DNA from: Aurantiacibacter arachoides
GTDB lineage: Bacteria > Pseudomonadota > Alphaproteobacteria > Sphingomonadales > Sphingomonadaceae
Reading direction: 5' to 3'
Length of the DNA stretch: 64,000 nucleotides
Assembly (NCBI RefSeq): GCF_009827335.1
Contig: NZ_WTYH01000001.1
Span: forward strand, 1,364,001-1,428,000
Every line of letters starts with the position of its first letter. Within the stretch, counting starts at the first letter, position 1. A model generated the notes under the pieces. That model searched no databases. It had not been told where the DNA came from and saw only the letters and a program-made list of their open reading frames with translations. The position numbers were made by a program, and so were the translations under genes. This document shows positions 36,244 to 49,080 of the stretch, one piece after another.

Positions 36244-39200
36244 CTAGTGAAAGTCGCGCGACTTGGGAATGATCCGCACATCGCGCGGATGGCCGCCAGC
36301 CTCCGGGCCGTGGAAACCGCATTCCCGGTTGCCCGGGCCGGGGGGCTGCCACGGTTCCACCGGCCCGGCCGCTTGCGTGTTGTGAGGGTCGTCCGCGCCC
36401 GTGCGCAGGTCGTCGCGCGGGTTCGGCTTGCCACAGGCGAGCGGTGAATTGACATGATCGGCGCGCGCGATCACCGGGCGCAGCAGGTCATCCGACAGGC
36501 GATGCAGTTCGCGCGTGGCATCCGTCATGTGATGGGCAATGACGTGGATCACCTCGTCATCGTATTCCACCCGGCCCCGCACCTCCATCAACCGCGCGCC
36601 CATTACCACGGTGCGCTGCTTTTCCTTGAGATCGGGCCAGACGACCAGGTTGATGACGCCGGTCTCGTCCTCCAGCGTAATGAAGCATACGCCCTTGGCA
36701 CTGCCCGGCCGCTGGCGGATCAGCACGACCCCCGCCACCTGCACCATCGAACGGAACTTGCGGGCACGCAGGTCCACGGCGCGCACGAAGCCGCGATCCG
36801 CCAGGCTGGCCCGCAGGAACGCCAGCGGATGCGCCTTCAGGCTGAGGCGCGTGGTCTGGTAATCGGCGACGACTTCCTCGGAAAGCGGCATCCGCGGCAG
36901 GATGGCGCGGCGCCGCTCTGCCCCCTCGTCGCGCTCGTCGGCATGGGCGAACAGCGGCAGGTCGGGCGCGGCAACCAGGCTGCGCGCATCCCACAGCGCC
37001 TGCCGCCGGGTGAGGTCCATCGACTGAAAGGCATCGGCGCTGGCAAGCCGTTCGACATGCGCCGGCCCGATTCGCGCCCGATCGCGCAGTTCGGCGACAT
37101 CGGCATAAGCGCCGCCGTCCGCCCGCGCCGCGACGAGCTTGGCGGCGACGTGTTCGGGCAAGCCGTCGATCTGCCGCAGGCCCAGGCGCAGCGCGATGTG
37201 CCGGTCCTGACGGCCGGACACGTCGGCACCGGCTTCATTGGCCAGGCCCGTCACCTCCAGCGTGCAGTCCCACGCGCTGAGGTTCACATCGACCGGCAGC
37301 ACCTGCACGCCGTGCTCGGCCGCATCGCGCACGATCTGCGCCGGGGCGTAGAAGCCCATGGGTTGCGAGTTGAGCAGCGCGCAGCCGAAGGCGGCGGGAA
37401 AGTGGCATTTCAGCCAGCTCGAAACGTAGACGAGGTGTGCAAAGCTGGCCGCGTGACTCTCGGGGAAGCCGTATTCGCCGAAGCCGCGGATCTGGTTGAA
37501 GCAGCGCTGGGCGAAGTCGCGGTCGTAGCCGCGGTCGACCATGCGTTCGACCATCATGTCCTGCAATTCGTCCACCATGCCGCGGCTGCGGAAGGTCGCC
37601 ATCGCCTTGCGCAGGCGGTTGGCCTCCTTGCTGGAGAACCTGGCCGCATCGAGCGCGATCTTCATCGCCTGTTCCTGGAAGATCGGCACGCCAAGCGTCC
37701 GCTCTAGGATGCTGGAAAGCTCGTCGGGCGGGCCGTGTTCGGGCGATGGCGCTGGGATCTGCACCTGTTCCGCCCCGCGGCGGCGCTTCAGGTAGGGGTG
37801 CACCATGTCGCCCTGGATCGGACCGGGGCGCACGATGGCGACCTGGATGACGAGATCGTAGAACTCGCGCGGGCGCAGGCGGGGCAGCATGTTCATCTGC
37901 GCCCGGCTTTCAACCTGGAACACGCCGAGCGAATCGCCCTTGCGCAGCATGGCATAGGTTTCCGGGTCTTCCCGCGGCACGCTGGCGAGCGTCAGCGATC
38001 GATCGTGGTGGTCCTCCAGCAGGTTCAGACACTTGCGGATGCAGGTCAGCATCCCCAGCGCCAGCACGTCCACCTTGAGGATGCCGAGCGCCTCGATGTC
38101 ATCCTTGTCCCACTCGATGAACGTGCGGTCGGGCATGGCCCCGTTGCCCACCGGCACGGTTGCGGTCAGCGCGCCTTCGGTCAGGATGAATCCCCCGACG
38201 TGCTGCGACAGGTGGCGGGGCATCCCGACCATCTGCTCGGTCAGTTTCAGCACGCGGCGCAGGTGCGGATCGGTCACGTCCATGCCGGTTTCGGCGGCGT
38301 GCTTCTCGCTCACCTCCTTGCCCCACCCGCCCCACACGGTGCGCGCCAGCGCGGCGGTGACATCCTCGGTCAGCCCCATCGCCTTGCCCACCTCGCGGAT
38401 GGCCATGCGCGGGCGATAGTGGATGACCGTGGCGCACAGCCCGGCACGGTGGCGGCCATAGCGTCGGTAGATGTGCTGGATCACCTCCTCGCGCCGCTCG
38501 TGCTCGAAATCGACATCGATGTCGGGCGGTTCCTTGCGGTCTTCGGAGATGAAGCGATCGAACAGCAGCTGGTGGTGCGCCGGGTCGACGCTGGTGATGC
38601 CCAGGCAATAGCACACCGCCGAATTGGCCGCGCTGCCCCGCCCCTGGCACAGGATCGGCGGATCAACCTCGTATCGGGCGAAATCGACGATGCCCTTGAT
38701 GGTGAGGAAATAGCGCGCCAGCCCCATCTTTGCGATCAGTGCCAGTTCCTTTTCCAGCGTGGCGAGGATGTGGTCGGGCACGCCATGGGGGTAGCGGTCA
38801 GTCGCGCCCCAGAACGTCTCCATCTCCAGATAGTCCTGCGGGCCCATGCCCTGCGGATAGATTTCCTCAGGATACTCGTATTGCAGTTCTTCGAGGCTGA
38901 AAGTGCAGGCATCGGCCACCGCGCGCGCGGCGGCAATGGCGTGGGGCCAGCGGGCGAACAGGCGCGCCATTTCGGCCGGGCTCTTGAGGTGCCGTTCGGA
39001 ATTGCCGTGGAGCAGATGGCCCGCGGCGGCCACGGTGGTCTTGTGACGGATCGCGGTCATCACGTCCTGCAACGGACGGCGATCGGCGGCATGGTAATGC
39101 ACATCGTTGGTGGCGAGCAGGCGCATCCCGTTCGCCCGCGCGAGGGCATCGAGCCGGTCGATCCGGGCGATATCATTGCCCTGATACAGATAGGCCGCCG

Positions 39201-39825
39201 CAAGGTGGCCCATGCCGGGCAACATGGCCCGCAGGTGGCGCAGCAGATCGGGGAATGGCGCGGTCAGCCGGTAGGGGCCGAAGGCGGGCGTAGTGCTGCC
39301 CGGAAAGGCCACCACGTTGCTGGGCACGGCAACGGTGAAATGCCGGTCCAGGTCGCGCGGCGGCATGATGACGAGGTGCACGTCTTCGGCATGGTCCACC
39401 AGCATGGCCAGGTTGATGTCGCAGGCGCCCTTTTCCTGCCATTCGCCATCCAGCGTGGCCATGCGGCCCGCGCTGATGAGGCTGCAGAGGCGGCCATAGG
39501 CGGCCCGGTCGCGCGGATAGGCGAGGAAAGCGAACCCTTCGACGGTCTCGATCCGCGTGCCGATGACGGGGCGCATTTTCAGCGTCCTCGCCTCGGTATG
39601 CACGCGCACGACACCGGCCATCGAATTAGCATCGGCGATCCCGATGGCATCGTAGCCAAGCGCGCGTGCCGTCAGCACCAGGTCGACCGCATCGGATGCC
39701 CCGCGCAGGAAGCTGAAGCAGCTGACGAGGCCGAGTTCCACGAACGGCGCGCGTGATGGTGCATCGATGGTGTCGGGATCGAGCTCGATCGTCCGGCGGG
39801 GCTGGAGAAGGTCGTTTTCGGGCAT
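36244..39825 (-). CDS. dnaE2: Error-prone DNA polymerase DnaE2 (ImuC)
   Basis: C-family polymerase that copies damaged DNA together with ImuA and ImuB, 1193 aa. An N-terminal PHP domain (VELGLVSCFSFLRGASD) is followed by the polymerase core with catalytic aspartates D435 and D437 and D439 in the PDIDVDFEHERR motif. ERTLGVPIFQEQ, a family motif, and an OB-fold C-terminus are present. It is apart from imuA-imuB here, 7 kb away, and lies 97 bp behind the UdgX fusion gene on the same strand. Confidence 0.95.
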   Translation of the reverse strand: MPENDLLQPRRTIELDPDTIDAPSRAPFVELGLVSCFSFLRGASDAVDLVLTARALGYDAIGIADANSMAGVVRVHTEARTLKMRPVIGTRIETVEGFAFLAYPRDRAAYGRLCSLISAGRMATLDGEWQEKGACDINLAMLVDHAEDVHLVIMPPRDLDRHFTVAVPSNVVAFPGSTTPAFGPYRLTAPFPDLLRHLRAMLPGMGHLAAAYLYQGNDIARIDRLDALARANGMRLLATNDVHYHAADRRPLQDVMTAIRHKTTVAAAGHLLHGNSERHLKSPAEMARLFARWPHAIAAARAVADACTFSLEELQYEYPEEIYPQGMGPQDYLEMETFWGATDRYPHGVPDHILATLEKELALIAKMGLARYFLTIKGIVDFARYEVDPPILCQGRGSAANSAVCYCLGITSVDPAHHQLLFDRFISEDRKEPPDIDVDFEHERREEVIQHIYRRYGRHRAGLCATVIHYRPRMAIREVGKAMGLTEDVTAALARTVWGGWGKEVSEKHAAETGMDVTDPHLRRVLKLTEQMVGMPRHLSQHVGGFILTEGALTATVPVGNGAMPDRTFIEWDKDDIEALGILKVDVLALGMLTCIRKCLNLLEDHHDRSLTLASVPREDPETYAMLRKGDSLGVFQVESRAQMNMLPRLRPREFYDLVIQVAIVRPGPIQGDMVHPYLKRRRGAEQVQIPAPSPEHGPPDELSSILERTLGVPIFQEQAMKIALDAARFSSKEANRLRKAMATFRSRGMVDELQDMMVERMVDRGYDRDFAQRCFNQIRGFGEYGFPESHAASFAHLVYVSSWLKCHFPAAFGCALLNSQPMGFYAPAQIVRDAAEHGVQVLPVDVNLSAWDCTLEVTGLANEAGADVSGRQDRHIALRLGLRQIDGLPEHVAAKLVAARADGGAYADVAELRDRARIGPAHVERLASADAFQSMDLTRRQALWDARSLVAAPDLPLFAHADERDEGAERRRAILPRMPLSEEVVADYQTTRLSLKAHPLAFLRASLADRGFVRAVDLRARKFRSMVQVAGVVLIRQRPGSAKGVCFITLEDETGVINLVVWPDLKEKQRTVVMGARLMEVRGRVEYDDEVIHVIAHHMTDATRELHRLSDDLLRPVIARADHVNSPLACGKPNPRDDLRTGADDPHNTQAAGPVEPWQPPGPGNRECGFHGPEAGGHPRDVRIIPKSRDFH

Positions 39826-39840
39826 GGCTCGACGTCCCGC

Positions 39841-39918
39841 TCATCCTGAGCCTGTCGAAGGACTGCCTACCTTCTGCCGGGGCGAAAGCGAGAACCCCGT
39901 CGACAAGCTCAGGAAGAG
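39841..39918. repeat. Inverted REP-like repeat between UdgX and dnaE2
   Basis: Two imperfect inverted arms: TCATCCTGAGCCTGTCGAAG at the left (39841) and GTCGACAAGCTCAGGAAGAG at the right (39899-39918). This is the intergenic CTCAGGATGAG-type element common in sphingomonads. It can form a large hairpin in the message between udgX and dnaE2. Confidence 0.6.
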
Positions 39919-39922
39919 CAGA

Positions 39923-41374
39923 TCAGGGGGCCTCCGCCATCTGGTCGAGCCGCTCCTTCACCGCGGCCAGGTCTGCGGCGAACAGGCGTTGCTGTTCTTC
40001 CCGCGCTGGCCCGTCGAGGCGGAGCAGATAGGAAGGGTGCGCGGTGACCCACAGCTCGCTGCCGTCGTCGAGCGGGATCGGCTCGCCGCGTGCCTTGGTG
40101 ATGCTGACCGTCTTGCCGAGCAGCCCGCGCGCGGCGGACGCGCCCAACGCCAGCACCAGTTTGGGTTTCACGATGGCACGCTCGGCCTCCTGCCACCAGC
40201 GGCAGGTGTCGATTTCCTTGGCCGTGGGCGACTGGTGCAGCCGCCGCTTGCCGCGCTGGACGTATTTGAAATGCTTGACCGCGTTGGTGACATAGGTGCC
40301 GCTCCGGTCGATCCCCGCCTGCTCCAGCCCGGCGTCGAGAACCTGTCCGGCAGGTCCGACGAAGGGTCGCCCGGCAAGGTCTTCCTGATCGCCCGGCTGT
40401 TCGCCCACGATCATCAGGGCCGCATCGCGCGGCCCCTCCCCCATCACCGCCTGGTTGTCGAGATGGCCGATGGGGCACTGGCGACAGGCATGGATGGCCT
40501 TGTCGATGGCTTCCAGCGTCTCGGGCCGCTCGGCAAATTCCAGTTCTCCTGCCGCGACCATCGCGCTCTCCCGCCGCTGAGCGCCTGCCACCAGCTCGGG
40601 AATGAGCGCGGCCTCGGGCATGTTCTTCCAGTATTTCTTGGGCATTTCCTTCAGCATCGCCCCGATCTTCAAACGCGCAGGATTGAAGATGGATGCGTAG
40701 TACTTGCGCCACAGGTCCTCCGCCGGATCGCCCTGCGGCGCGTCGCCGCGCTCGGCGGGTGGGCCTTCGCGCAGGACCTCGCCGTCCCAGTGCAGCGTGC
40801 CCGCCGGCGTCAGGATCGACCATCGCATGGAGGCAAAACGGCGCACGAAGAAGCCCGCCTCGCGCCGCAGGATATGGTGATCGGGCTCGAACCAGGCGAC
40901 GTAATGCTCGTGCGGCTGGCCCTCCTCGTCCAGCTCTTCCACCATGCGGAAGCGCACGAAGGCGTGCATCTTGTGCGCGTCGCGGCGGACGGCCTTGTCC
41001 AGCTCCTCGATCCGGCGAACGTCGGCATCGGCCTTGTCCTCCATCAGGCGCGGGTTGGACTGCAACCGCCACAGCATGCGATAGAGCAGCGCAAAGCGTT
41101 CCGGATCGGAATGCAGCGCTGCGTTCTTCGCCAGCGAGACGAAGCGCTTGCTGGCGCGCACGGGGCGATCGGGATCGTCGGGCACGGGTGCGCGCCGCTC
41201 ACCGTGGCTGAACAGCGAGCCGGTGGCGCCCGGCTCCACCCAGGCGATCCGATCGGGCGGCACGTCGCACTGAATCAGGCTGCGCGCCCGCTCTCGCCAG
41301 AAGGCGAAGTCGTCAGGATCGGGCAGGTTGACGACGTAGTAAGTGCCAAGCCTGACGTGTTGCAACGCGGTCAT
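39923..41374 (-). CDS. DUF4130 (TIGR03915) - UdgX uracil-DNA glycosylase fusion
   Basis: Two-domain repair protein, 483 aa. Residues about 5-250 match the DUF4130 / SAM-linked family that pairs with the upstream radical-SAM protein. Residues about 275-480 are a UDG-superfamily UdgX domain, with GEQPGDQ at 324-330 and the histidine H380 in the KRRLHQSPT loop. In UdgX this His forms a covalent link with deoxyribose after uracil removal. A four-cysteine Fe-S site typical of UdgX is suggested by HACRQCP and other cysteines. The start is 10 bp behind the radical-SAM stop, so they are co-translated. Confidence 0.9.
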   Translation of the reverse strand: MTALQHVRLGTYYVVNLPDPDDFAFWRERARSLIQCDVPPDRIAWVEPGATGSLFSHGERRAPVPDDPDRPVRASKRFVSLAKNAALHSDPERFALLYRMLWRLQSNPRLMEDKADADVRRIEELDKAVRRDAHKMHAFVRFRMVEELDEEGQPHEHYVAWFEPDHHILRREAGFFVRRFASMRWSILTPAGTLHWDGEVLREGPPAERGDAPQGDPAEDLWRKYYASIFNPARLKIGAMLKEMPKKYWKNMPEAALIPELVAGAQRRESAMVAAGELEFAERPETLEAIDKAIHACRQCPIGHLDNQAVMGEGPRDAALMIVGEQPGDQEDLAGRPFVGPAGQVLDAGLEQAGIDRSGTYVTNAVKHFKYVQRGKRRLHQSPTAKEIDTCRWWQEAERAIVKPKLVLALGASAARGLLGKTVSITKARGEPIPLDDGSELWVTAHPSYLLRLDGPAREEQQRLFAADLAAVKERLDQMAEAP

Positions 41375-41384
41375 GACCGCCCCC

Positions 41385-42626
41385 TCATCCCGCGAACAGC
41401 TCGAGCTGTTCCTGCTTCGGCGCCAGCAGCGCGCGCAGATCCGCGCGGTCCGTCAATGTGATCGGGCGCCAGTCGGCGGCAATCAGGAAAGGCCGCACGC
41501 GGCTGATGGAGACGGTGAGCTTGGCCACGTCCTCCAGCCGCAATGTGCGATGGCGGCGGCTGGCGATGATCTGCGCCACGGCCTTGGTCCCCAGCCCCGG
41601 CACCCGCCACAACTGTTCCTTCGTGGCGCGGTTGACGTCGACGGGAAAGTGCTCACGGAATTTCAACGCCCAGGCGAGCTTGGGATCGATATCGAGCGGC
41701 AGGTTGCCGTCCGCCTCGGTCGCCTGCATCACCTCGCGCGGGGCGAAGCCGTAGAACCGCATCAGCCAGTCCGACTGGTAAAGCCGGTGCTCGCGCATCA
41801 ACGGCGGGCGCTTCAGCGGCAGCACCGCACTCGCATCGGGGATTGGCGAGAACGCGCTGTAATAGACGCGGCGCAGGCGGAATCGATCGTAGAGGCGGCT
41901 GGCCTTGCCCACGATATCCGCATCGCTTGCCGCGTCCGCCCCCACGATCATCTGCGTCGACTGGCCAGCGGGCGCGAAACGCGGTGCGTGCTTGAAGCGC
42001 TTCTTCTCGTCGACGGCCTGCTTCATGGCCATCTTCATGCCGCCCATCGCGCCTTCGATCTTCGCTGCGTCCTTGTCGGGTGCGAGACGGGTAAGGCCGG
42101 CATCGGTGGGCAGTTCGACGTTGATGGAAATGCGGTCCGCATAGAGCCCGGCCTGATGGACCAGCTGCGGATCCGCCTCGGGAATGGTCTTCAGGTGGAT
42201 ATAGCCGCGAAAGTCGTGCTCCTCGCGCAGGATGCGCGCGGTTTCCACCAGCAGTTCCATCGTGTGGTTGGAGCTCTTGATGATGCCCGAGGAAAGGAAC
42301 AGCCCCTCTATATAATTGCGGCGATAAAAGGTGAGCGTGAGGTCGGCCACTTCCTGCGGCGTAAACTTGGCGCGCCGCACGTTCGAACTCTTGCGGTTGA
42401 CGCAGTAGTGGCAATCGAAAATGCAGTGATTGGTCAGCAGGATCTTCAGCAGCGAGATGCATCGCCCATCGGGCGCATAGGCATGACAGATGCCCATCCC
42501 CTCGGTCGAGCCGATGCCGCCCGACTTGCTGTTGCGCTTGGCCGTGCCGGACGATGCGCACGAGGCATCGTACTTCGCCGCATCGGCAAGGATTTCCAGC
42601 TTCTGGATGGTATCGAGCGCGGCCAT
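41385..42626 (-). CDS. Radical-SAM putative DNA modification/repair protein (TIGR03916)
   Basis: Radical-SAM enzyme, 413 aa. The cluster motif is C68-x3-C72-x2-C75 (HCIFDCHYC). The core continues with GLFLSSGI and the IPEADP segment. A C-terminal helix-hairpin-helix-like DNA-binding region follows (VDVNRATKEQLWRVPGLG, near residue 330). The reaction is not known. Families of this kind always travel with the DUF4130/UdgX protein, as here. A LexA box overlaps the ribosome-binding region, so the gene is damage-inducible. Confidence 0.9.
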   Translation of the reverse strand: MAALDTIQKLEILADAAKYDASCASSGTAKRNSKSGGIGSTEGMGICHAYAPDGRCISLLKILLTNHCIFDCHYCVNRKSSNVRRAKFTPQEVADLTLTFYRRNYIEGLFLSSGIIKSSNHTMELLVETARILREEHDFRGYIHLKTIPEADPQLVHQAGLYADRISINVELPTDAGLTRLAPDKDAAKIEGAMGGMKMAMKQAVDEKKRFKHAPRFAPAGQSTQMIVGADAASDADIVGKASRLYDRFRLRRVYYSAFSPIPDASAVLPLKRPPLMREHRLYQSDWLMRFYGFAPREVMQATEADGNLPLDIDPKLAWALKFREHFPVDVNRATKEQLWRVPGLGTKAVAQIIASRRHRTLRLEDVAKLTVSISRVRPFLIAADWRPITLTDRADLRALLAPKQEQLELFAG

Positions 42627-42628
42627 AT

Positions 42629-42643
42629 GTTCCTTATATGTTC
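42629..42643 (-). promoter_or_regulatory. LexA (SOS) box before the radical-SAM gene
   Basis: GTTC-CTTATAT-GTTC, the alphaproteobacterial LexA site GTTC-N7-GTTC, two bases from the start codon. Nearly identical to the box at 49066-49080. Confidence 0.85.
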
Positions 42644-42753
42644 ACTTGTTGGATTCACAAGCCCCCCGTGAGATCGCCCCAACAAATCTCGGGAACTCTT
42701 GAGGAATTTTCGGTGTTAGGAATGTGAACTCTTACCGACTGAAGGATATCCCC

Positions 42754-43590
42754 ATGGCATTTTTGAAAACCCGCGACGGCACTCATCTGCGCTGGAAGGA
42801 ACTTGGCTCCGGACGCCCGGTGGTCCTGATCCACGGCTGGCCGCTGTCCGCGGACAGCTGGGATCCGGTGATGATGGAATTGGCCGACAACGGCTATCGC
42901 GCCATCGCCTATGACCGCCGCGGCTTTGGCCACTCCGACCATGCGGCCTCGGGCTACGATTACGATACCTTCGCCGACGATCTTGCCGACGTGATGAAGG
43001 AAACCGGCGCGACCGAGAACGTGGCGCTGGTCGGCTTCTCCATGGGCGGCGGCGAGATCGCCCGCTACATGTCACGCCACGGCGGCCAGGGCGTGACGCA
43101 GGCGGTGCTGGTCAGTTCCGTGGTGCCCTACATGCTCAAGACCGACGACAACCCGGACGGTGTGCCGCAGTCGACCTTCGATGAGATGACCGACGGCATG
43201 AAGACCAAGTACCGCCATTTCTTCACCGGCTTCTTCAAGGATTTCTACGGGGACGGCGTGCTGACCGACAAGGTCTATGACGAGGAGAAGCACTGGGCCT
43301 GGATGACCACGATGATGGCATCGAAGTATGCCACCATGAAATCGGCCGAGGCCTTTGCCACCACCGATTTCCGTCCCGACCTGCCGAGCATCACGGTGCC
43401 CACGCTGGTGATTCACGGAACCAAGGATCAGACCGTGCCAATCGACGCCACCGGCCGCGCCGTGGCCGAGCAGGTGCCGGGCGCCACGCTGATCGAATAC
43501 GATGGGGAGCCGCACGCCGTCTTCGCCACGCAGACCGAGCGCCTGTCGCAGGATATCGTCGCGTTCCTCGACAACCGCCGATCCGCCTGA
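42754..43590 (+). CDS. Alpha/beta hydrolase, non-haem chloroperoxidase-like
   Basis: Soluble hydrolase, 278 aa from the ATG at 42754. The nucleophile elbow GFSMGGGE puts the serine at residue 96. HGWPLSADSW is the oxyanion region, TLVIHGTKDQTVPI the acid (Asp) region and EPHAVFA the catalytic histidine. The sequence matches the cofactor-free haloperoxidase/esterase type. The natural substrate is unknown. It is divergent from the radical-SAM gene, with the LexA box in the gap. Confidence 0.88.
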   Translation: MAFLKTRDGTHLRWKELGSGRPVVLIHGWPLSADSWDPVMMELADNGYRAIAYDRRGFGHSDHAASGYDYDTFADDLADVMKETGATENVALVGFSMGGGEIARYMSRHGGQGVTQAVLVSSVVPYMLKTDDNPDGVPQSTFDEMTDGMKTKYRHFFTGFFKDFYGDGVLTDKVYDEEKHWAWMTTMMASKYATMKSAEAFATTDFRPDLPSITVPTLVIHGTKDQTVPIDATGRAVAEQVPGATLIEYDGEPHAVFATQTERLSQDIVAFLDNRRSA

Positions 43591-43608
43591 TTCTCAAACA
43601 GACATACC

Positions 43609-43646
43609 AAAGGGGCGTGCACCGCGAGGTGCGCGCCCCTTTTTCG
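43609..43646 (+). terminator. Terminator of the hydrolase gene
   Basis: GGGGCG(T)GCACC-GCGA-GGTGC(G)CGCCCC followed by TTTTT. Confidence 0.85.
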
Positions 43647-43726
43647 TTCTCAATCCGAAATTAACCGCGTTTCGCAAACCGGAATTTACCAACGGCGGCC
43701 AGCCTGAGAGGGAAGAGGACCCTTGC

Positions 43727-44155
43727 ATGAAACTGTTCAGGCGCGCCAAGCCCGATCCGCTCCCCGAACGGCGCATCGCCGCGCGGGTACGCGTCAACGC
43801 ACCCGCCATGCTGCTGCTGCCGAGCGGGGGGCGGCCCGGCCACATCTTCGACATCTCCACGGACGGCGCGCGTTTCATGACACAAAGCCCGCCGCGCCAG
43901 GGCATGAGCGCCATCCTGGAATGGGCGGATTACGAGGTTTATTGCATTGTCTCGTGGCAACGGCCGGGAATGTGCGGCGTGGCATTCGATCGCCCGATAT
44001 CGCAGCAGGCCGTCGATCGGCTCGCACGCGAATGCCCGGCCGGCCCGCGCCCGTTGATGAGCCTGCCCGACCTGTTTGACGACGAGGACCCTGCCGCCAC
44101 CTCCCCCAGCCCCGCGCCCGCCCCAATTCCCCCACGCCGCCGCTTCATGTGCTGA
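43727..44155 (+). CDS. PilZ domain protein
   Basis: Probable cyclic-di-GMP binding protein, 142 aa from the ATG at 43727. The PilZ signature is split as RRIAAR near residue 16 and DISTDGARF around 49, consistent with R-x3-R and (D/N)-x-S-x2-G. A proline-rich tail follows (SPAPAPIPPRR). It stands alone between the hydrolase and the carbonic anhydrase. Target unknown. Confidence 0.85.
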   Translation: MKLFRRAKPDPLPERRIAARVRVNAPAMLLLPSGGRPGHIFDISTDGARFMTQSPPRQGMSAILEWADYEVYCIVSWQRPGMCGVAFDRPISQQAVDRLARECPAGPRPLMSLPDLFDDEDPAATSPSPAPAPIPPRRRFMC

Positions 44156-44331
44156 TCGCTGGTCGGTGTCCGGAACACCAATTTCTCTCTTTCAGCGGCA
44201 GGGAAGACAGGCTAGGCGATCGTCACGTACCGGGCCCCTCTGGCGAACCGCAAAGGCTCGCGATGTCGGACGTATCGACCTTGGGGCGATACGCGGCAGC
44301 GGTCGTCCCATCAGTTCAGATGGAGCGAATG

Positions 44332-45066
44332 ATGTTTTCCCGACGCGATCTTATTACCACCGGTTCCGCTCTTACCGCCGCCACGCTAGTGACCGGCGCC
44401 ACTGCCTCTGCCCACGCGCGCTCGATGCCGCCCGCAGCGGATCCCATCACCGCCCTGCCGCCGACCGATCTCACGCCTGATCAGGCCTTGGCCTTGCTGC
44501 GCCAGGGCAACGCCGCTTTCTTGCGCGGCGAGCAGCCCCAGGTGCTGCCGAATCCCCGGCGCCGGCTGGAGATGGCTGCGGGGCAGAGCCCGTTTGCAGC
44601 CTATGTCACCTGTTCCGACAGCCGGGTACCACCCGAACTCCTGTTCGGCCGCGGCCTTGGTGAGTTGTTCATTATCCGCAACGCCGGCAACACCGTCGAC
44701 ACGGTCGCGCTGGGCTCGATCGAATACGCTGTTGCCGTGCTGGGCGTGCCGTTGGTGGTGGTCATGGGCCATGAAAGCTGCGGGGCGGTAAAGGCGGCGA
44801 CCGAGGTGGTGACGGACAATGCCACCTTCCCCGGTTCCATAGGCCCGATGATAGAGCCCATCATTCCCGCCGTGCTGGCCGCCCGAGGTGAGGATGGCGA
44901 CCTGCTCAACAACGCCATTCGCGCCAACGTGCGGCGCGTGGTGCGGCAACTGCGCCAGCATACCGACCCCTTGCTGCTGGAGCCGCAGCGCGAAGGCCGG
45001 CTGAAGGTGGTCGGCGCCTATTACGACCTGAACGACGGCAGCGTGGACTTCTTCGACCTGCCCTGA
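44332..45066 (+). CDS. Tat-exported beta-carbonic anhydrase
   Basis: Zn enzyme interconverting CO2 and bicarbonate, 244 aa. The start is ATG 44332 or 44329 behind GGAG. A Tat-like signal (SRRDLITTG, hydrophobic stretch, AHA) suggests export to the periplasm, not the more usual cytoplasmic location. Zinc ligands are C94, H147 and C150, and D96/R98 form the active-site dyad (CSDSR). Confidence 0.87.
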   Translation: MFSRRDLITTGSALTAATLVTGATASAHARSMPPAADPITALPPTDLTPDQALALLRQGNAAFLRGEQPQVLPNPRRRLEMAAGQSPFAAYVTCSDSRVPPELLFGRGLGELFIIRNAGNTVDTVALGSIEYAVAVLGVPLVVVMGHESCGAVKAATEVVTDNATFPGSIGPMIEPIIPAVLAARGEDGDLLNNAIRANVRRVVRQLRQHTDPLLLEPQREGRLKVVGAYYDLNDGSVDFFDLP

Positions 45067-45086
45067 GATCTGAACCAAGAATTTCC

Positions 45087-45122
45087 GTGCGCGCCCGCCC
45101 GTGCGGGCGCGCTCTTTCTTTC
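45087..45122 (+). terminator. Terminator of the carbonic anhydrase gene
   Basis: GCGCGCCCGC-CCGT-GCGGGCGCGC followed by TCTTTCTTTC. Confidence 0.85.
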
Positions 45123-45252
45123 ATGCCGCCGAATTCGTAAAGGCTGCAGCATAACCGGAACCGCAGCGCGCCGCCGGGGTTCAGTGCCGACAACAGACCG
45201 GGACGAAGTCTATCGTCTCGAATAAACAGGCAATCCAGGGACCGACATCACG

Positions 45253-46056
45253 ATGGACATCCTCGCCCTTCTTTCCGATCCCGCTGCCTGGCTGGCGCTG
45301 GGCACCTTGATCATGCTCGAGGTGATCCTCGGCGTGGATAATCTCATCTTCATCGCCATCCTTTCGAACAAGCTGCCCAAGCACCTGCAATCCAAGGCCC
45401 GTCGCATCGGCCTCTCGCTGGCGCTGATCATGCGGATCGGCCTGCTGATGCTGATCGGCTGGATCGTCACGCTGCAGACGCCGCTGTTCGATCTCGGGCT
45501 GGTGGGGTCGCCCAACGAATACGGCGAACCGAGCTTCGAGACCGCATTTTCGGGCCGCGACCTCATCCTGCTGGCGGGCGGCCTGTTCCTGCTGTGGAAG
45601 GCGACCAAGGAAATCCACCACTCGATGGAACCGCTCGACAACTCGGGTGACATCATGGACAAGACCCCCGGCCTTGCCGCCGCCGGGACCGCCACCTTCG
45701 GGGCCGTCATCGCGCAGATCATCGCCATCGACCTCGTATTCTCCGTCGATTCCATCCTGACCGCCGTGGGCATGACGGACGAGGTGCCGATCATGGTCGC
45801 CGCCGTCGTCATCACCGTGGGCGTGATGATGGTCGCTGCCGACCCGCTCTCGCGCTTCATCGAGAAGAACCCGACGCTGGTGATGCTGGCGCTCGCCTTC
45901 CTCGTGATGATCGGCCTGGTGCTGATCGCCGACGGCCTCGGCTTCCACGTGCCCAAGGGCTACATCTACGTCGCGATGGGCTTCTCGGTCGGCGTGGAAC
46001 TGCTCAATATGGTCCAGCGCAACAAGCGGGTGCGGGAGGCGGCTTCCGAGGGGTGA
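45253..46056 (+). CDS. TerC family membrane protein
   Basis: Integral membrane protein, 267 aa, with seven or more helices. The family motif [13 protein letters not shown] in the first helix and [10 protein letters not shown] in a later one have acidic residues thought to bind metal. TerC homologues take part in manganese or other metal export and resistance. It overlaps the PhyH gene by 4 bp. A second protein of the superfamily is at 53844. Confidence 0.9.
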
Positions 46057-46718
46057 CGCCTTGCCTGCGCGAAGACGGGACCGAGCTTCACCCGCACCTG
46101 GCAGCTGCAATGCTGCCGGAACTTCGCGTTCTTGCAGAAGGTATCGGGTCTTCGCTGGCCGGGGTGCGTCTGCACGGTCATGCTGGCCTGGAGGCACTGC
46201 TGCGACCCGAACGGGCTGTGGGATCGCTGGCGGTGGCATTGCTGGGGGATCGCGCTCGTCCGGTGCGTGCCATTCTGTTCGACAAGCGCCCGGGGATGAA
46301 TTGGGGGCTGGCGTGGCACCAGGACCGCACGATCTGCGTGGAGCGCAAGGTGGAAACCGATGGCTTCGGCCCATGGACCATGAAGCAGGGCATCCACCAT
46401 GTCGCGCCGCCGATGACCGTGCTGGAGCGGATGGTGACCTTGCGCATTCACATCGATGATGTGCCAGCGACCAATGCTCCGTTGCTCGTGGCACTGGGTT
46501 CGCATCGCCTCGGCCTCGTGCCTGAGCCAGAGATCGAGCGCGTGGTGGAACGCCATACGGTCGTGGAATGCCTTGCCCGGGCGGGTGACGTCTGGGCCTA
46601 TGCCACGCCGATCCTGCATGCCTCACGTTCCGCCTCGGGGGCGGTCAGTCGCCGCGTTCTGCAGGTGGATTTCAGTGCCGTCGAGCTGCCGGGCGAACTG
46701 ATGTGGCTCAGCATCTGA
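46053..46718 (+). CDS. Phytanoyl-CoA dioxygenase-like (PhyH) protein
   Basis: Putative Fe(II)/2-oxoglutarate dioxygenase, 221 aa from a GTG at 46053. The iron ligands appear as H-x-D in WHQDRT with the distal His in TPILHASRS, and an Arg after it (SRRVLQVDF) would bind 2-oxoglutarate. The substrate is unknown. It shares an ATG/GTG overlap with terC, so it is likely in the same message. Confidence 0.82.
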
Positions 46719-46722
46719 CCGC

Positions 46723-48273
46723 TCACGCGAACAGCCCCTGCAGATACCACTCGGGCATTCCCCCGCGCCCATCGGTGGCGAGGCCGTTGCGGTAGATCCA
46801 GTAGCGGCGGCCGGTATCGTCCTCGATGCGATAGTAATCGCGCAGGCGCGTGCGGCCGTTCTCGCGCCACCATTCGGGGGCGATGCGTTCGGGGCCTTCC
46901 ACGCGGGCGACCTCGAACACATCGCCCCGCCAGCGGAAGCGGCGCGGTTCGCCATCGGGGCTGGCGTAGAGCACGGCAATGGGTTCCGCCCGATCGAGCA
47001 GCTTGGCCGGGCGCTGGTGAAAGGCCAGCTGATGCTGGTGCACGGGTTCGGGATCGAGCGGCGGCTGCCACCCTTGCGCGCGTTCGGGAATATGGCTGGC
47101 CTTGAGCACCGGGCGGCGCACGGCCCTGGTGCCCAGGCGGACGGTCAGCCGGTCCATGCAGGCCGCCAGCGACGTGCCGTGGCCCTCTGCCGCAGCCTCG
47201 ATGTCGGCCTGCGCCAGGCCCAGCGGTTCGGCCCAGCTGGCGCGCAGGCGCAGCATCTCGATCCCGAAGCCCGCGTCCACGTCATCCAGCTTGGCGGCGA
47301 ACAGGCGGCAGATGTGCGCCGCCTCACGCGTGGCGGCGGCAAGTTCGAGCTGGCGCCAGACCACCTCCCCATCCACCCGCCACATGCCCAGCTGCAACCG
47401 CCGCGCGCCTTCGCCCCGCCCTTCCAGCGTGCGGGCCATGTCGTCCGCCAGGTCGCCCACCACCTGATCCAGCAGCTCGCGGTGGCGGATCGGTTCCATC
47501 AGGCGGCGCTGGACGATGGGCATGGTCAGCGGGATGACCGGCAGCAGCGGTTCCGGCACGCGGCCGGTCAGCTGGTCCATGCGCACCAGCGGGTTGGCAG
47601 CGGGCGACTTGCGGTTGCGGAACCGGCGGTGGAGCGAATCGCGGCCTCTGGTATCGCCGCTCATGCCGGAAAGGTCGCCCAGCTGCTTCAGGCCGAGGCG
47701 GCGCAGCACCAGCAGCACGTCGGCATCGAGGCGCAACGCGGCGACGGGCAAGCCGGCAAGGCGCGCGGCCACGTCCTCCCCTGCCCCGATCACCGTGCCC
47801 GGGGCGGCGTAGTGCGCCAGCGCCCAGGCCGCGCCCGCGGTGGGTGCGATGGCGGCGGCGACGGACAGGCCGCGACCGGCGCAGCGGGCGGCGACATCGG
47901 CCAGCAACCGTGCCTCTCCGCCGAACAGGTGCGCTACGGCGGAAACGTCGACCAGCACGCCGTCGGGCGCGTCCATCGCGCTCCACGGGCCCCAGCGCTG
48001 GCTCCACACGGCAAAGCGTTCGAGAAAGGCGAGATCGCCCGCCGGATCGCTCGGCTGGACGGCGATCTGCGGGCACAGCGTGCGGGCGTCGGCCAGCATC
48101 ATGCCACGCGTGGCGCCGTGCGCGCGGGCGAGCACGTTCGCCGCCTCGATCCGCGGACCGTGGGCGGTTTCCGCAATCAGCGCCAGTGGCTGGGCGTCCG
48201 CGCCTTCCCCGGCGCCGCAATTCTCAGAGTGTCGCCAGCGATCGAGCATCAGCTCCCGGCACCAGATCGCCAT
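46723..48273 (-). CDS. imuB: Y-family-like mutagenesis protein ImuB
   Basis: Catalytically inactive Y-family homologue that connects DnaE2 to the beta clamp, 516 aa. Start MAIWCREL at 48273. The usual metal residues of active Y polymerases are absent (the AMDAPDGVLVDVSA segment stands where DinB carries SxDE). GDLSGMSGDTRGRD and the little-finger region are conserved, with LFGGE after. Its start lies 50 bp inside the imuA end. Confidence 0.93.
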   Translation of the reverse strand: MAIWCRELMLDRWRHSENCGAGEGADAQPLALIAETAHGPRIEAANVLARAHGATRGMMLADARTLCPQIAVQPSDPAGDLAFLERFAVWSQRWGPWSAMDAPDGVLVDVSAVAHLFGGEARLLADVAARCAGRGLSVAAAIAPTAGAAWALAHYAAPGTVIGAGEDVAARLAGLPVAALRLDADVLLVLRRLGLKQLGDLSGMSGDTRGRDSLHRRFRNRKSPAANPLVRMDQLTGRVPEPLLPVIPLTMPIVQRRLMEPIRHRELLDQVVGDLADDMARTLEGRGEGARRLQLGMWRVDGEVVWRQLELAAATREAAHICRLFAAKLDDVDAGFGIEMLRLRASWAEPLGLAQADIEAAAEGHGTSLAACMDRLTVRLGTRAVRRPVLKASHIPERAQGWQPPLDPEPVHQHQLAFHQRPAKLLDRAEPIAVLYASPDGEPRRFRWRGDVFEVARVEGPERIAPEWWRENGRTRLRDYYRIEDDTGRRYWIYRNGLATDGRGGMPEWYLQGLFA

Positions 48274-49048
48274 GATCCGGCGTGCCGGTTGCGGAACGCT
48301 CGGCGGCGAGGATATCGTCCCCATCGCGCAGTATCCATTCTCCGGGGATATGGCCGCGGGCCCGGAACAGCTCGGCATGCCAGGCCGGACGGCCGGGCGC
48401 GGCGGTGTTCCACAGCGGCGGGGCGGACGGGGCGGCGCGCGCGTGCCAGCGCATCCGCGCCGAGCTGAGTTCGGGGTGTGCATCCAGCCGCACCATCACC
48501 AGCGGCACACCGTGCTTTTCCGCTGCAAGGCTGAGGCGGCGCGAGGCGGTGAAATCGAACACGCGCGGGTTGCCTGCCAGTTCGCCGATGACGCAGGCGA
48601 GGTCGCGGCAGCGCACGCCTTCCTCCAGCGCGAACAGCGCGTCTTCCGGCTTGTCGGCGGCGACATGGATCAGGCGGTGGGCCAGCCAGCGCGGCAGGCC
48701 CGGGCGATAGGGCATGCCCGACAGCCGCCGCGCGCGCTTGTCCTGCACCCACAATATCGGTTTCTCGTCCGCCTCTGCCCCTACTGCGGTCCCTGCCCCG
48801 ACCCCTGCCCCGACCCTTGCCCCGATCCTTGCCCCGTCGGCTCGAGCCGCCGCGCGCAGCCCGTCGCGCGCCAAGGCAAGCGCCATCCCCGCCCCGCTAC
48901 CCTCTGTGGCAGGAGCGAATATCTCGCTGTGCAGCGCATGCGCGGCTCTTGGCTGCCAATGCGGGGCGTGACTGCTCGCCGCGGCGAGATCGCCCGCGCG
49001 CAGCAGGTGGCCCGCCTTCAGGGCATCGGGATGGGCTGCCATGTCCAT
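48224..49048 (-). CDS. imuA: SOS mutagenesis protein ImuA
   Basis: RecA-like partner of ImuB and DnaE2, 274 aa. A core resembling the ImuA family begins at ILWVQDKRARRLSGMPY. The Walker region is poor, as known for the family. A Gly/Ala repeat (GARIGARVGAGVGAG) at about residues 72-88 is encoded by a 12-bp DNA repeat. A LexA box lies 18 bp upstream. Confidence 0.88.
   Translation of the reverse strand: MDMAAHPDALKAGHLLRAGDLAAASSHAPHWQPRAAHALHSEIFAPATEGSGAGMALALARDGLRAAARADGARIGARVGAGVGAGTAVGAEADEKPILWVQDKRARRLSGMPYRPGLPRWLAHRLIHVAADKPEDALFALEEGVRCRDLACVIGELAGNPRVFDFTASRRLSLAAEKHGVPLVMVRLDAHPELSSARMRWHARAAPSAPPLWNTAAPGRPAWHAELFRARGHIPGEWILRDGDDILAAERSATGTPDHGDLVPGADARSLATL
48794..48840. repeat. 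12-bp tandem repeat inside imuA
   Basis: TGCCCCGACCCC type unit repeated about four times with small changes (TGCCCCGACCCT, TGCCCCGATCCT). In frame with imuA, so it changes length by 4 residues per copy. Confidence 0.85.
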
Positions 49049-49065: not shown

Positions 49066-49080
49066 GTTCCGCTTATGTTC
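49066..49080 (-). promoter_or_regulatory. LexA (SOS) box before imuA
   Basis: GTTC-CGCTTAT-GTTC, the alphaproteobacterial LexA site. Confidence 0.85.

Follow-up and report, generated by a model that had tools for sequence, protein, structure and literature searches.

A predicted SOS operon of Aurantiacibacter arachoides combining a radical-SAM protein with a clamp-type tail, a DUF4130-UdgX fusion and dnaE2

Gene Organization of the Locus

We analysed a 64,000-nucleotide stretch of Aurantiacibacter arachoides DNA, referred to as the window (positions 1364001-1428000 of a 2.94-Mb contig; coordinates below are window positions unless stated), for a set of genes that probably make up an SOS operon whose products process lesions at the sliding clamp. 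On the minus strand lie, in order, a LexA-type box, a radical S-adenosylmethionine (rSAM) gene, a 10-bp gap, a gene for a DUF4130-UdgX fusion, a 97-bp gap and dnaE2. An earlier note on this DNA had described the same arrangement, and its coordinates, gaps and single strand all hold. The rSAM gene (41385-42626, minus) belongs to TIGR03916 (rSAM_link_UDG; 571.2 bits, curated cut-off 343.5). The fusion gene (39923-41374, minus) matches two profiles, with the DUF4130 part, TIGR03915, at residues 20-255 (40610-41317, minus; 219.6 bits, cut-off 112.25) and the UdgX domain, TIGR03914, behind it (39959-40606, minus; 319.3 bits, cut-off 189.95). The error-prone DNA polymerase gene dnaE2 (36244-39825, minus) matches NF004225 with 1360.5 bits (cut-off 939). 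The protein identities proposed earlier are in this way all confirmed above curated cut-offs.

The locus was compared with four sets of relatives. Of the 149 genomes in the family sample, 100 have TIGR03916 above its cut-off, and 98 of these 100 loci were compared; left out were the window's own genome and G026, whose rSAM copy is split over two frames. In the phylum sample 53 of 299 genomes scored over the cut-off; 43 of these loci lie outside the family, and the comparison took in 40 of them, 26 from the same class (alphaproteobacterial) and 14 from other classes. A further set holds the best 80 of 588 loci by match to a 17-sequence alignment, the first row of which is the L137 protein (50% identical to the window rSAM); it is dominated by Bacteroidota and is not a random sample. 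Neither are the five plasmid loci, chosen by hand for their distance. These sets (98 family, 40 proteobacterial, 5 plasmid and 80 mostly Bacteroidota) supplied 223 rSAM homologues.

LexA Boxes and Promoter

The LexA box of the set, GTTCCTTATATGTTC (42629-42643), reads GAAC-N7-GAAC on the minus strand and ends 2 bp before the rSAM ATG. Taken alone it is weak evidence, because the window holds three exact GTTC-N7-GTTC sites and at least three were reached by 15 of 100 shuffles; genome-wide there are 89 such sites, against 45 for the reversed pattern. Among the relatives, a GTTC-N7-GTTC box lies within about 100 bp upstream of the rSAM start in 96 of 98 family loci (the two without are L086 and L105), as against 4 of 1078 control windows from the same loci. 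The same box precedes rSAM in all 26 other alphaproteobacterial loci (controls 1/285). At the loci of other proteobacterial classes it was found in 0 of 14, and CTGT-N8-ACAG stands in its place in 11 of them (controls 0/154); neither box was found at the six Moraxellaceae loci. In the mostly Bacteroidota set, CTAA-N5-TTAG, a motif given in PMC8565304, lies upstream in 16 of 69 loci (controls 0/725). A class-specific box is conserved at the promoter, and because its letters change by lineage while its place is kept, LexA control is strongly supported; SOS control of the rSAM set is very likely. The same genome carries the box at contig positions 831524-831538, ahead of a recA match that begins at 831689, and at 1164303-1164317, upstream of the lexA match (1163590-1164246, minus). 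A GTTC-N7-GTTC match was also seen upstream in 3 of the 69 mostly Bacteroidota loci (1/725 controls), which is unexplained.

COG4277 is presumably the TIGR03916 radical-SAM family. In PMC8565304, SOS control of COG1573-COG4277 is predicted in Bacteroidetes. The paper adds that such control has been reported for Verrucomicrobia and for Alphaproteobacteria, and for the operon it cites one study on Verrucomicrobia along with one on the Caulobacter SOS regulon. A link of DUF4130 to SplB-like enzymes of the radical-SAM type and to uracil-DNA glycosylases (UDG), near SOS operons, is drawn in PMC3765255. The LexA-type damage control that the earlier note had suggested is borne out as a prediction from sequence, and neither SOS control of the pair nor its UDG association is new. 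The published putative SOS-regulated UDG repair operon has the same two families, TIGR03916 and TIGR03915, under predicted SOS control; compared with it, our analysis adds a clamp-type motif, a cysteine/histidine set, a LexA-covered and probably leaderless promoter, and dnaE2 downstream. In the literature searched, we did not find the clamp-type tail, the cysteine/histidine set or the split mutasome cassette described below.

For the promoter, 92 of the 98 family upstream regions were aligned; six were dropped, two boxless and four with a box reading GTTC on this strand. The aligned regions share a -35-like CTTGxC, which a 17-nt spacer separates from a TATAa that lies within the box. In the window a -10-like TATAAG (42633-42638, minus) lies within the LexA box, and a -35-like TTGTGA (42655-42660, minus) precedes it by a 16-nt spacer. 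Of the 92 regions, 74 have as their first in-frame start codon an ATG that follows the box by 2 nt. LexA would be expected to occupy the -10 element, and transcription to start on the start codon or right beside it. With the -10-like element inside the box and the ATG just beyond it, the rSAM mRNA is probably leaderless.

The Radical-SAM Protein

The CxxxCxxC motif for the S-adenosylmethionine cluster (C68, C72 and C75; 42402-42425, minus) is present in 223 of 223 homologues and, together with the profile score, places the protein in TIGR03916. Ahead of it lie three more conserved cysteines and a histidine (C23 to C56, 42459-42560, minus): C23, C47 and H48 are kept in 221 of the 223 and C56 in 222. 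C23, C47 and C56 could perhaps hold a second iron-sulphur (Fe-S) cluster. The auxiliary-cluster motif of lipoyl synthase is CX4CX5C. This motif is absent from the window rSAM, where residues 23, 47 and 56 give the spacing C-x23-C-x8-C; the protein differs further from lipoyl synthase and MiaB, which are auxiliary-cluster radical-SAM enzymes, in that identity is 12% and the fold match is of a kind shared by radical-SAM proteins in general. A helix-hairpin-helix region at residues 328-358 (41553-41645, minus) is suggested by an HHH_3 match with E 2.6e-5 and 24.7 bits, under the 27-bit gathering score.

The cysteines also bear on the idea that the pair modifies DNA bases, as a mark or against phages, and does not repair them. 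Auxiliary-cluster-like cysteines would suit the insertion of sulphur or carbon, and the NCBIfam title of the family reads 'DNA modification/repair'. Against this, LexA-type boxes are conserved in several classes, no PADLOC-DB defence-system model was matched at E <= 0.01, and the search for phage carriage found just two viral loci; we consider base modification extremely unlikely.

The protein ends in ...KQEQLELFAG, where QLELF (residues 407-411; 41394-41408, minus) has the form of a beta-clamp-binding motif. Two forms of this motif are known from bacterial clamp clients, a pentamer, QL[SD]LF, and a hexamer, QLxLxL/F. In the alignment of the 223 homologues, the column of the motif glutamine holds Gln in 222, the exception (L250) being truncated by a contig end; L or M follows in 212, the leucine position holds L in 211, and the last position holds F, L or W in 214. 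Of the 223 rSAM proteins, 181 carry a strict pentamer, Q[LM]xL[FLW], in their last 15 residues, as do 2 of 2980 other open reading frames (ORFs) of at least 250 residues from the same loci, a control that chiefly measures the chance rate, because many of these ORFs are probably spurious frames. Over the last 70 residues, the strict pentamer occurs in 186 homologues and a looser match (QLSLI, QASLF and QMSLAL among them) in 25; 11 have only a hexamer (including QLGFGF, QLSLGF, QLLLDF, QLILDF and QYQLNF) and one, L250, is cut off. The linker around the motif is variable, and the tail of the structure model has a predicted local distance difference test score (pLDDT) under 50. The tail is thus a flexible one with a QLxLF-type or QLxLxF/L-type motif, as in known clamp clients, and we infer that the rSAM protein may dock on the beta clamp (DnaN) through it. 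For comparison, the clamp motif of mycobacterial ImuB is QLPLWG (PMC10421592). We found no paper that joins radical SAM with a clamp-binding motif, and none that joins UdgX with radical SAM, in searches outside which most subscription journals and papers lie.

Pentamers elsewhere in the set were rejected as candidates: strict ones in ImuB (2/32) and in the UdgX fusion (2/125) are not conserved, and those in DnaE2 (20/35) were not counted as clamp motifs; eight of them, QLILL or QLVLL, lie some 1000 residues ahead of the C-terminal end. Gemmatirosa has a radical-SAM relative (L179, 36% identical) with neither the three extra cysteines nor a DUF4130 match nearby, yet with QLSLW near its C-terminus; it perhaps represents a sister family.

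NCBIfam includes models of spore photoproduct lyase (SPL). At E <= 1e-3 the window rSAM matches in this database only TIGR03916 and, weakly, ThiH, with no SPL model, and no SPL chain is among the 50 structure matches listed for its model. The missing SPL sequence match speaks against a non-sporulator SplB-type photoproduct lyase that would reverse thymine photoproducts, with DUF4130 and UdgX as helpers and the clamp motif of minor weight. So do the extra cysteine/histidine set and a motif glutamine about as conserved as the cluster cysteines, and the protein differs from SplB in these features and in the helix-hairpin-helix region. In favour of a lyase, the protein resembles SplB in being a damage-linked radical-SAM enzyme, PMC3765255 terms the DUF4130-associated enzymes SplB-like radical SAM photolyases, SOS control suits UV damage, and a helix-hairpin-helix region is present. 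On balance we regard a lyase as unlikely.

DUF4130 and UdgX

DUF4130 lies near rSAM in 95 of 98 family, 40 of 40 proteobacterial, 4 of 5 plasmid and 76 of 80 mostly Bacteroidota loci. Fused UdgX was found in 94, 29, 2 and 0 of these loci, respectively, and 11 of the 40 proteobacterial loci outside the family have DUF4130 without UdgX. On gene content the core of the system is rSAM with DUF4130, and UdgX is an optional fusion. The earlier note had made UdgX a member of the damage-induced module, and on this comparison it is not the core.

The window UdgX domain has the features of its family besides a score over the cut-off: GEQPG with its Gln, KRRxH with its His and the HPS motif are all in the alignment, and the R-loop KRRLH (40235-40249, minus) bears the cross-linking His, which is kept in 124 of 125 relatives. 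Covalent capture of abasic sites by the fusion is a putative function. Unlike Mycobacterium smegmatis UdgX, the domain is joined to DUF4130, and its gene shares a LexA-boxed operon with that of a radical-SAM enzyme. These ties, the fusion and the operon pairing of UdgX with rSAM, would fit a trap-and-release device in which the rSAM protein resolves the covalent UdgX-DNA adduct, and UdgX does bond covalently to the abasic site (PMC10359453). However, since the loci with DUF4130 beside rSAM and no UdgX exist both in the mostly Bacteroidota set and among the Proteobacteria, the core reaction cannot need UdgX, and such a device is very improbable.

The DUF4130 part was modelled with high confidence (block pLDDT mostly >90, residues 11-210). 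The structure-match lists for the fusion model are filled by its UdgX domain. A profile search of PDB sequences returned UDG-type rows over the UdgX part and, over the DUF4130 part, one chance-level row (E 0.21). The window DUF4130 matches a replication protein (PF23343) weakly in Pfam; as 1 of 61 members shows this match, we dismissed it as chance. In public sources, certain proteins that have DUF4130 alone go under the name 'uracil-DNA glycosylase' or 'DNA polymerase'. The COG1573/UDG label of the Bacteroidota operon in PMC8565304 may be annotation carried over from fused proteins, because the mostly Bacteroidota loci compared here (L186-L261) carry DUF4130 with no UdgX domain found.

Position of dnaE2 and the imuA-imuB-dnaE2 Cassette

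Besides the window, tblastn places dnaE2 immediately after the fusion gene, on the same strand, in 28 of the 98 family loci, and G026 agrees by coordinates. The gap from the fusion stop to the dnaE2 match is at most 15 nt in 24 of the 28 and 1 nt in 13; the four long gaps measure 91-137 nt. In 26 of the 28 an imuB gene lies upstream on the same strand, 53 to 3354 bp from rSAM; in six (L046, L049, L051, L066, L082 and L091) this spacer is under 100 bp, giving the order imuA-imuB-rSAM-UdgX-dnaE2. Twenty of the 70 relatives without the dnaE2 order were sampled, and imuA-imuB-dnaE2 is contiguous in all 20, with a box upstream of imuA. Because these relatives keep the cassette intact, the rSAM unit would have come to lie between imuB and dnaE2: the adjacency is real but, on this comparison, derived, in one part of the family. 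The gene order for which the earlier note had proposed a search in relatives is conserved there, as a derived layout. Outside the family, 4 of 40 proteobacterial loci (L147-L150), all from one alphaproteobacterial family, have an imuA-imuB-dnaE2 unit next to the pair in divergent orientation, and the single LexA-type box found there is in the rSAM upstream region. The link to DnaE2 that had been called unusual is thus real, but it is no one-off.

The cassette is split in the window. An imuB-like Y-family gene (ORF extent 46723-48483, minus; IMS and DUF6504 matches, synteny in relatives) probably has its true start at about 48.3-48.4 kb, inside that extent. The imuA-like gene (48224-49048, minus) matches ImuA_translesion with E 7e-6 and also lies in synteny beside imuB in relatives; at 26.1 bits, against the 150 bits of the NF033429 ImuA cut-off, its label rests on its position beside imuB. 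Both are on the strand of the rSAM set, about 4 kb upstream, with a LexA-type box of their own (49066-49080, minus; a GTTC-N7-GTTC pattern match). The two genes and this box were absent from the earlier note, as were the C-terminal clamp-type motif and the repeat hairpin described below. The window resembles the ImuA-ImuB-DnaE2 mutasome in having all three genes on one strand with LexA-type boxes. It differs in that imuB and dnaE2 are about 7 kb apart, the rSAM-UdgX pair stands before dnaE2, and five plus-strand genes (42724-46718; alpha/beta hydrolase, PilZ, carbonic anhydrase, TerC and PhyH matches) separate imuB from rSAM. Because these five genes intervene, imuAB transcription is unlikely to run into rSAM in the window.

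The 97-bp gap before dnaE2 holds an inverted pair of the repeat CTGAGCYTGTCGA (39845-39913; 10 genome copies), predicted by folding to form a hairpin of -53.8 kcal/mol (z -3.2). The long gap of L055 matches the same repeat pattern, and the other long-gap relatives have a different palindromic-looking sequence there. A gap of this kind would suit the view that dnaE2 lies downstream by chance, with its own promoter in the gap and a separate function. That view also gains from the 70 of 98 relatives in which the order is missing, and from a quick tree of 98 rSAM proteins (97 relatives, the interrupted L122 being excluded, and the window), on which the dnaE2 order needs 12 label changes (shuffles need 24.8, and none of 500 came as low), so that the order has been gained or lost repeatedly. 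On the other side stand the short gaps seen in 24 of the 28 relatives that share the order, the 20 tested relatives in which dnaE2 is part of an imuAB operon preceded by a box, and a window in which no further GTTC-N7-GTTC match was found from the rSAM box to dnaE2. Altogether a separate dnaE2 seems quite unlikely to us.

At the level of genomes, rSAM is present in 97 of 134 DnaE2-positive and 3 of 15 DnaE2-negative genomes (p = 1e-4 over 149 genomes, relatedness uncorrected). When the DnaE2-negative set alone is restricted to genomes at least 95% complete, the count is 3 of 11 (p = 0.004). In a locus from Nonlabens (L225), two ORFs stand immediately upstream of rSAM, one resembling dnaE2 and the other, weakly, imuB.

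Proposed Function

The gene order, the box, the promoter elements and the conserved motifs, all read from the DNA, suggest the following course. Upon DNA damage, cleavage of LexA would release the promoter with its LexA-covered -10 element for rSAM, DUF4130-UdgX and dnaE2. The rSAM protein, in a putative complex with DUF4130, would bind damaged DNA through its helix-hairpin-helix region, dock on the beta clamp by its QLELF tail, and use a 5'-deoxyadenosyl radical, perhaps with the second Fe-S cluster at C23/C47/C56, to process a damaged base. The fused UdgX may excise uracil, for example from deaminated cytosine, and cap the abasic site. The remainder would be handed over to DnaE2, recruited by clamp-bound ImuB, for filling. 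In the clade where the pair appears to have moved between imuB and dnaE2, its LexA box would now drive the polymerase. ImuB is described as the clamp-binding hub of the mutasome (PMC10421592), and the two proteins DnaE2 and ImuB of Caulobacter work on clamp-loaded gaps left by excision repair (PMC8102061).

Several points weigh against this proposal. The substrate and reaction of the rSAM protein are predicted, clamp binding is read from the motif, and the second cluster from cysteine conservation in a part of the model with a pLDDT of about 45. A few homologues fit the motif poorly, for example L252 and L257 (...LQYSIDW/LQYSIQW), which are among the 25 looser matches, and the 223 homologues are not mutually independent. 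DnaE2 is not an obligate partner of rSAM, because 70 of 98 family loci lack dnaE2 inside 6 kb and rSAM occurs in 3 of the 15 genomes without DnaE2; the dnaE2 order itself has come or gone repeatedly on the quick tree. Four of the 28 relatives with the order (L039, L047, L056 and L077) have an extra GTTC-N7-GTTC inside the fusion gene, about 1.6-1.7 kb after the rSAM start, and the strong repeat hairpin in the 97-bp gap bears on read-through from udgX to dnaE2, which is putative in the window.

A bolder proposal, which we offer tentatively and with some doubt, is that TIGR03916 is an unrecognised, clamp-docked, two-cluster direct-repair arm of the SOS response, which together with DUF4130 chemically undoes or rewrites lesions where the clamp marks a gap, and which uses the clamp in common with ImuB-DnaE2. 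If this were true, repair and mutagenic bypass would compete, or hand over, on one clamp ring, and some lineages would have joined both in one operon. TIGR03916 and DUF4130 form a widespread pair for which we found no described reaction in the literature searched. The conserved clamp-type tail would place the rSAM protein at the site of the translesion polymerases and narrow its substrate to lesions at clamp-loaded DNA, and the QLELF residues offer one clear target for mutation. The finding bears as well on the role of UdgX in these bacteria, a protein with a physiological role that PMC10359453 describes as largely unknown.

Minor Observations

Interrupted copies of the rSAM gene occur in the family: that of L122 has an in-frame stop, and the match at G026:C1:2412438-2413633 is split over two stretches. 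A candidate TIGR03916 match is also listed for Caulobacter vibrioides. Among the matches listed, the closest relative of the window rSAM is from Aurantiacibacter luteus, 96% identical.

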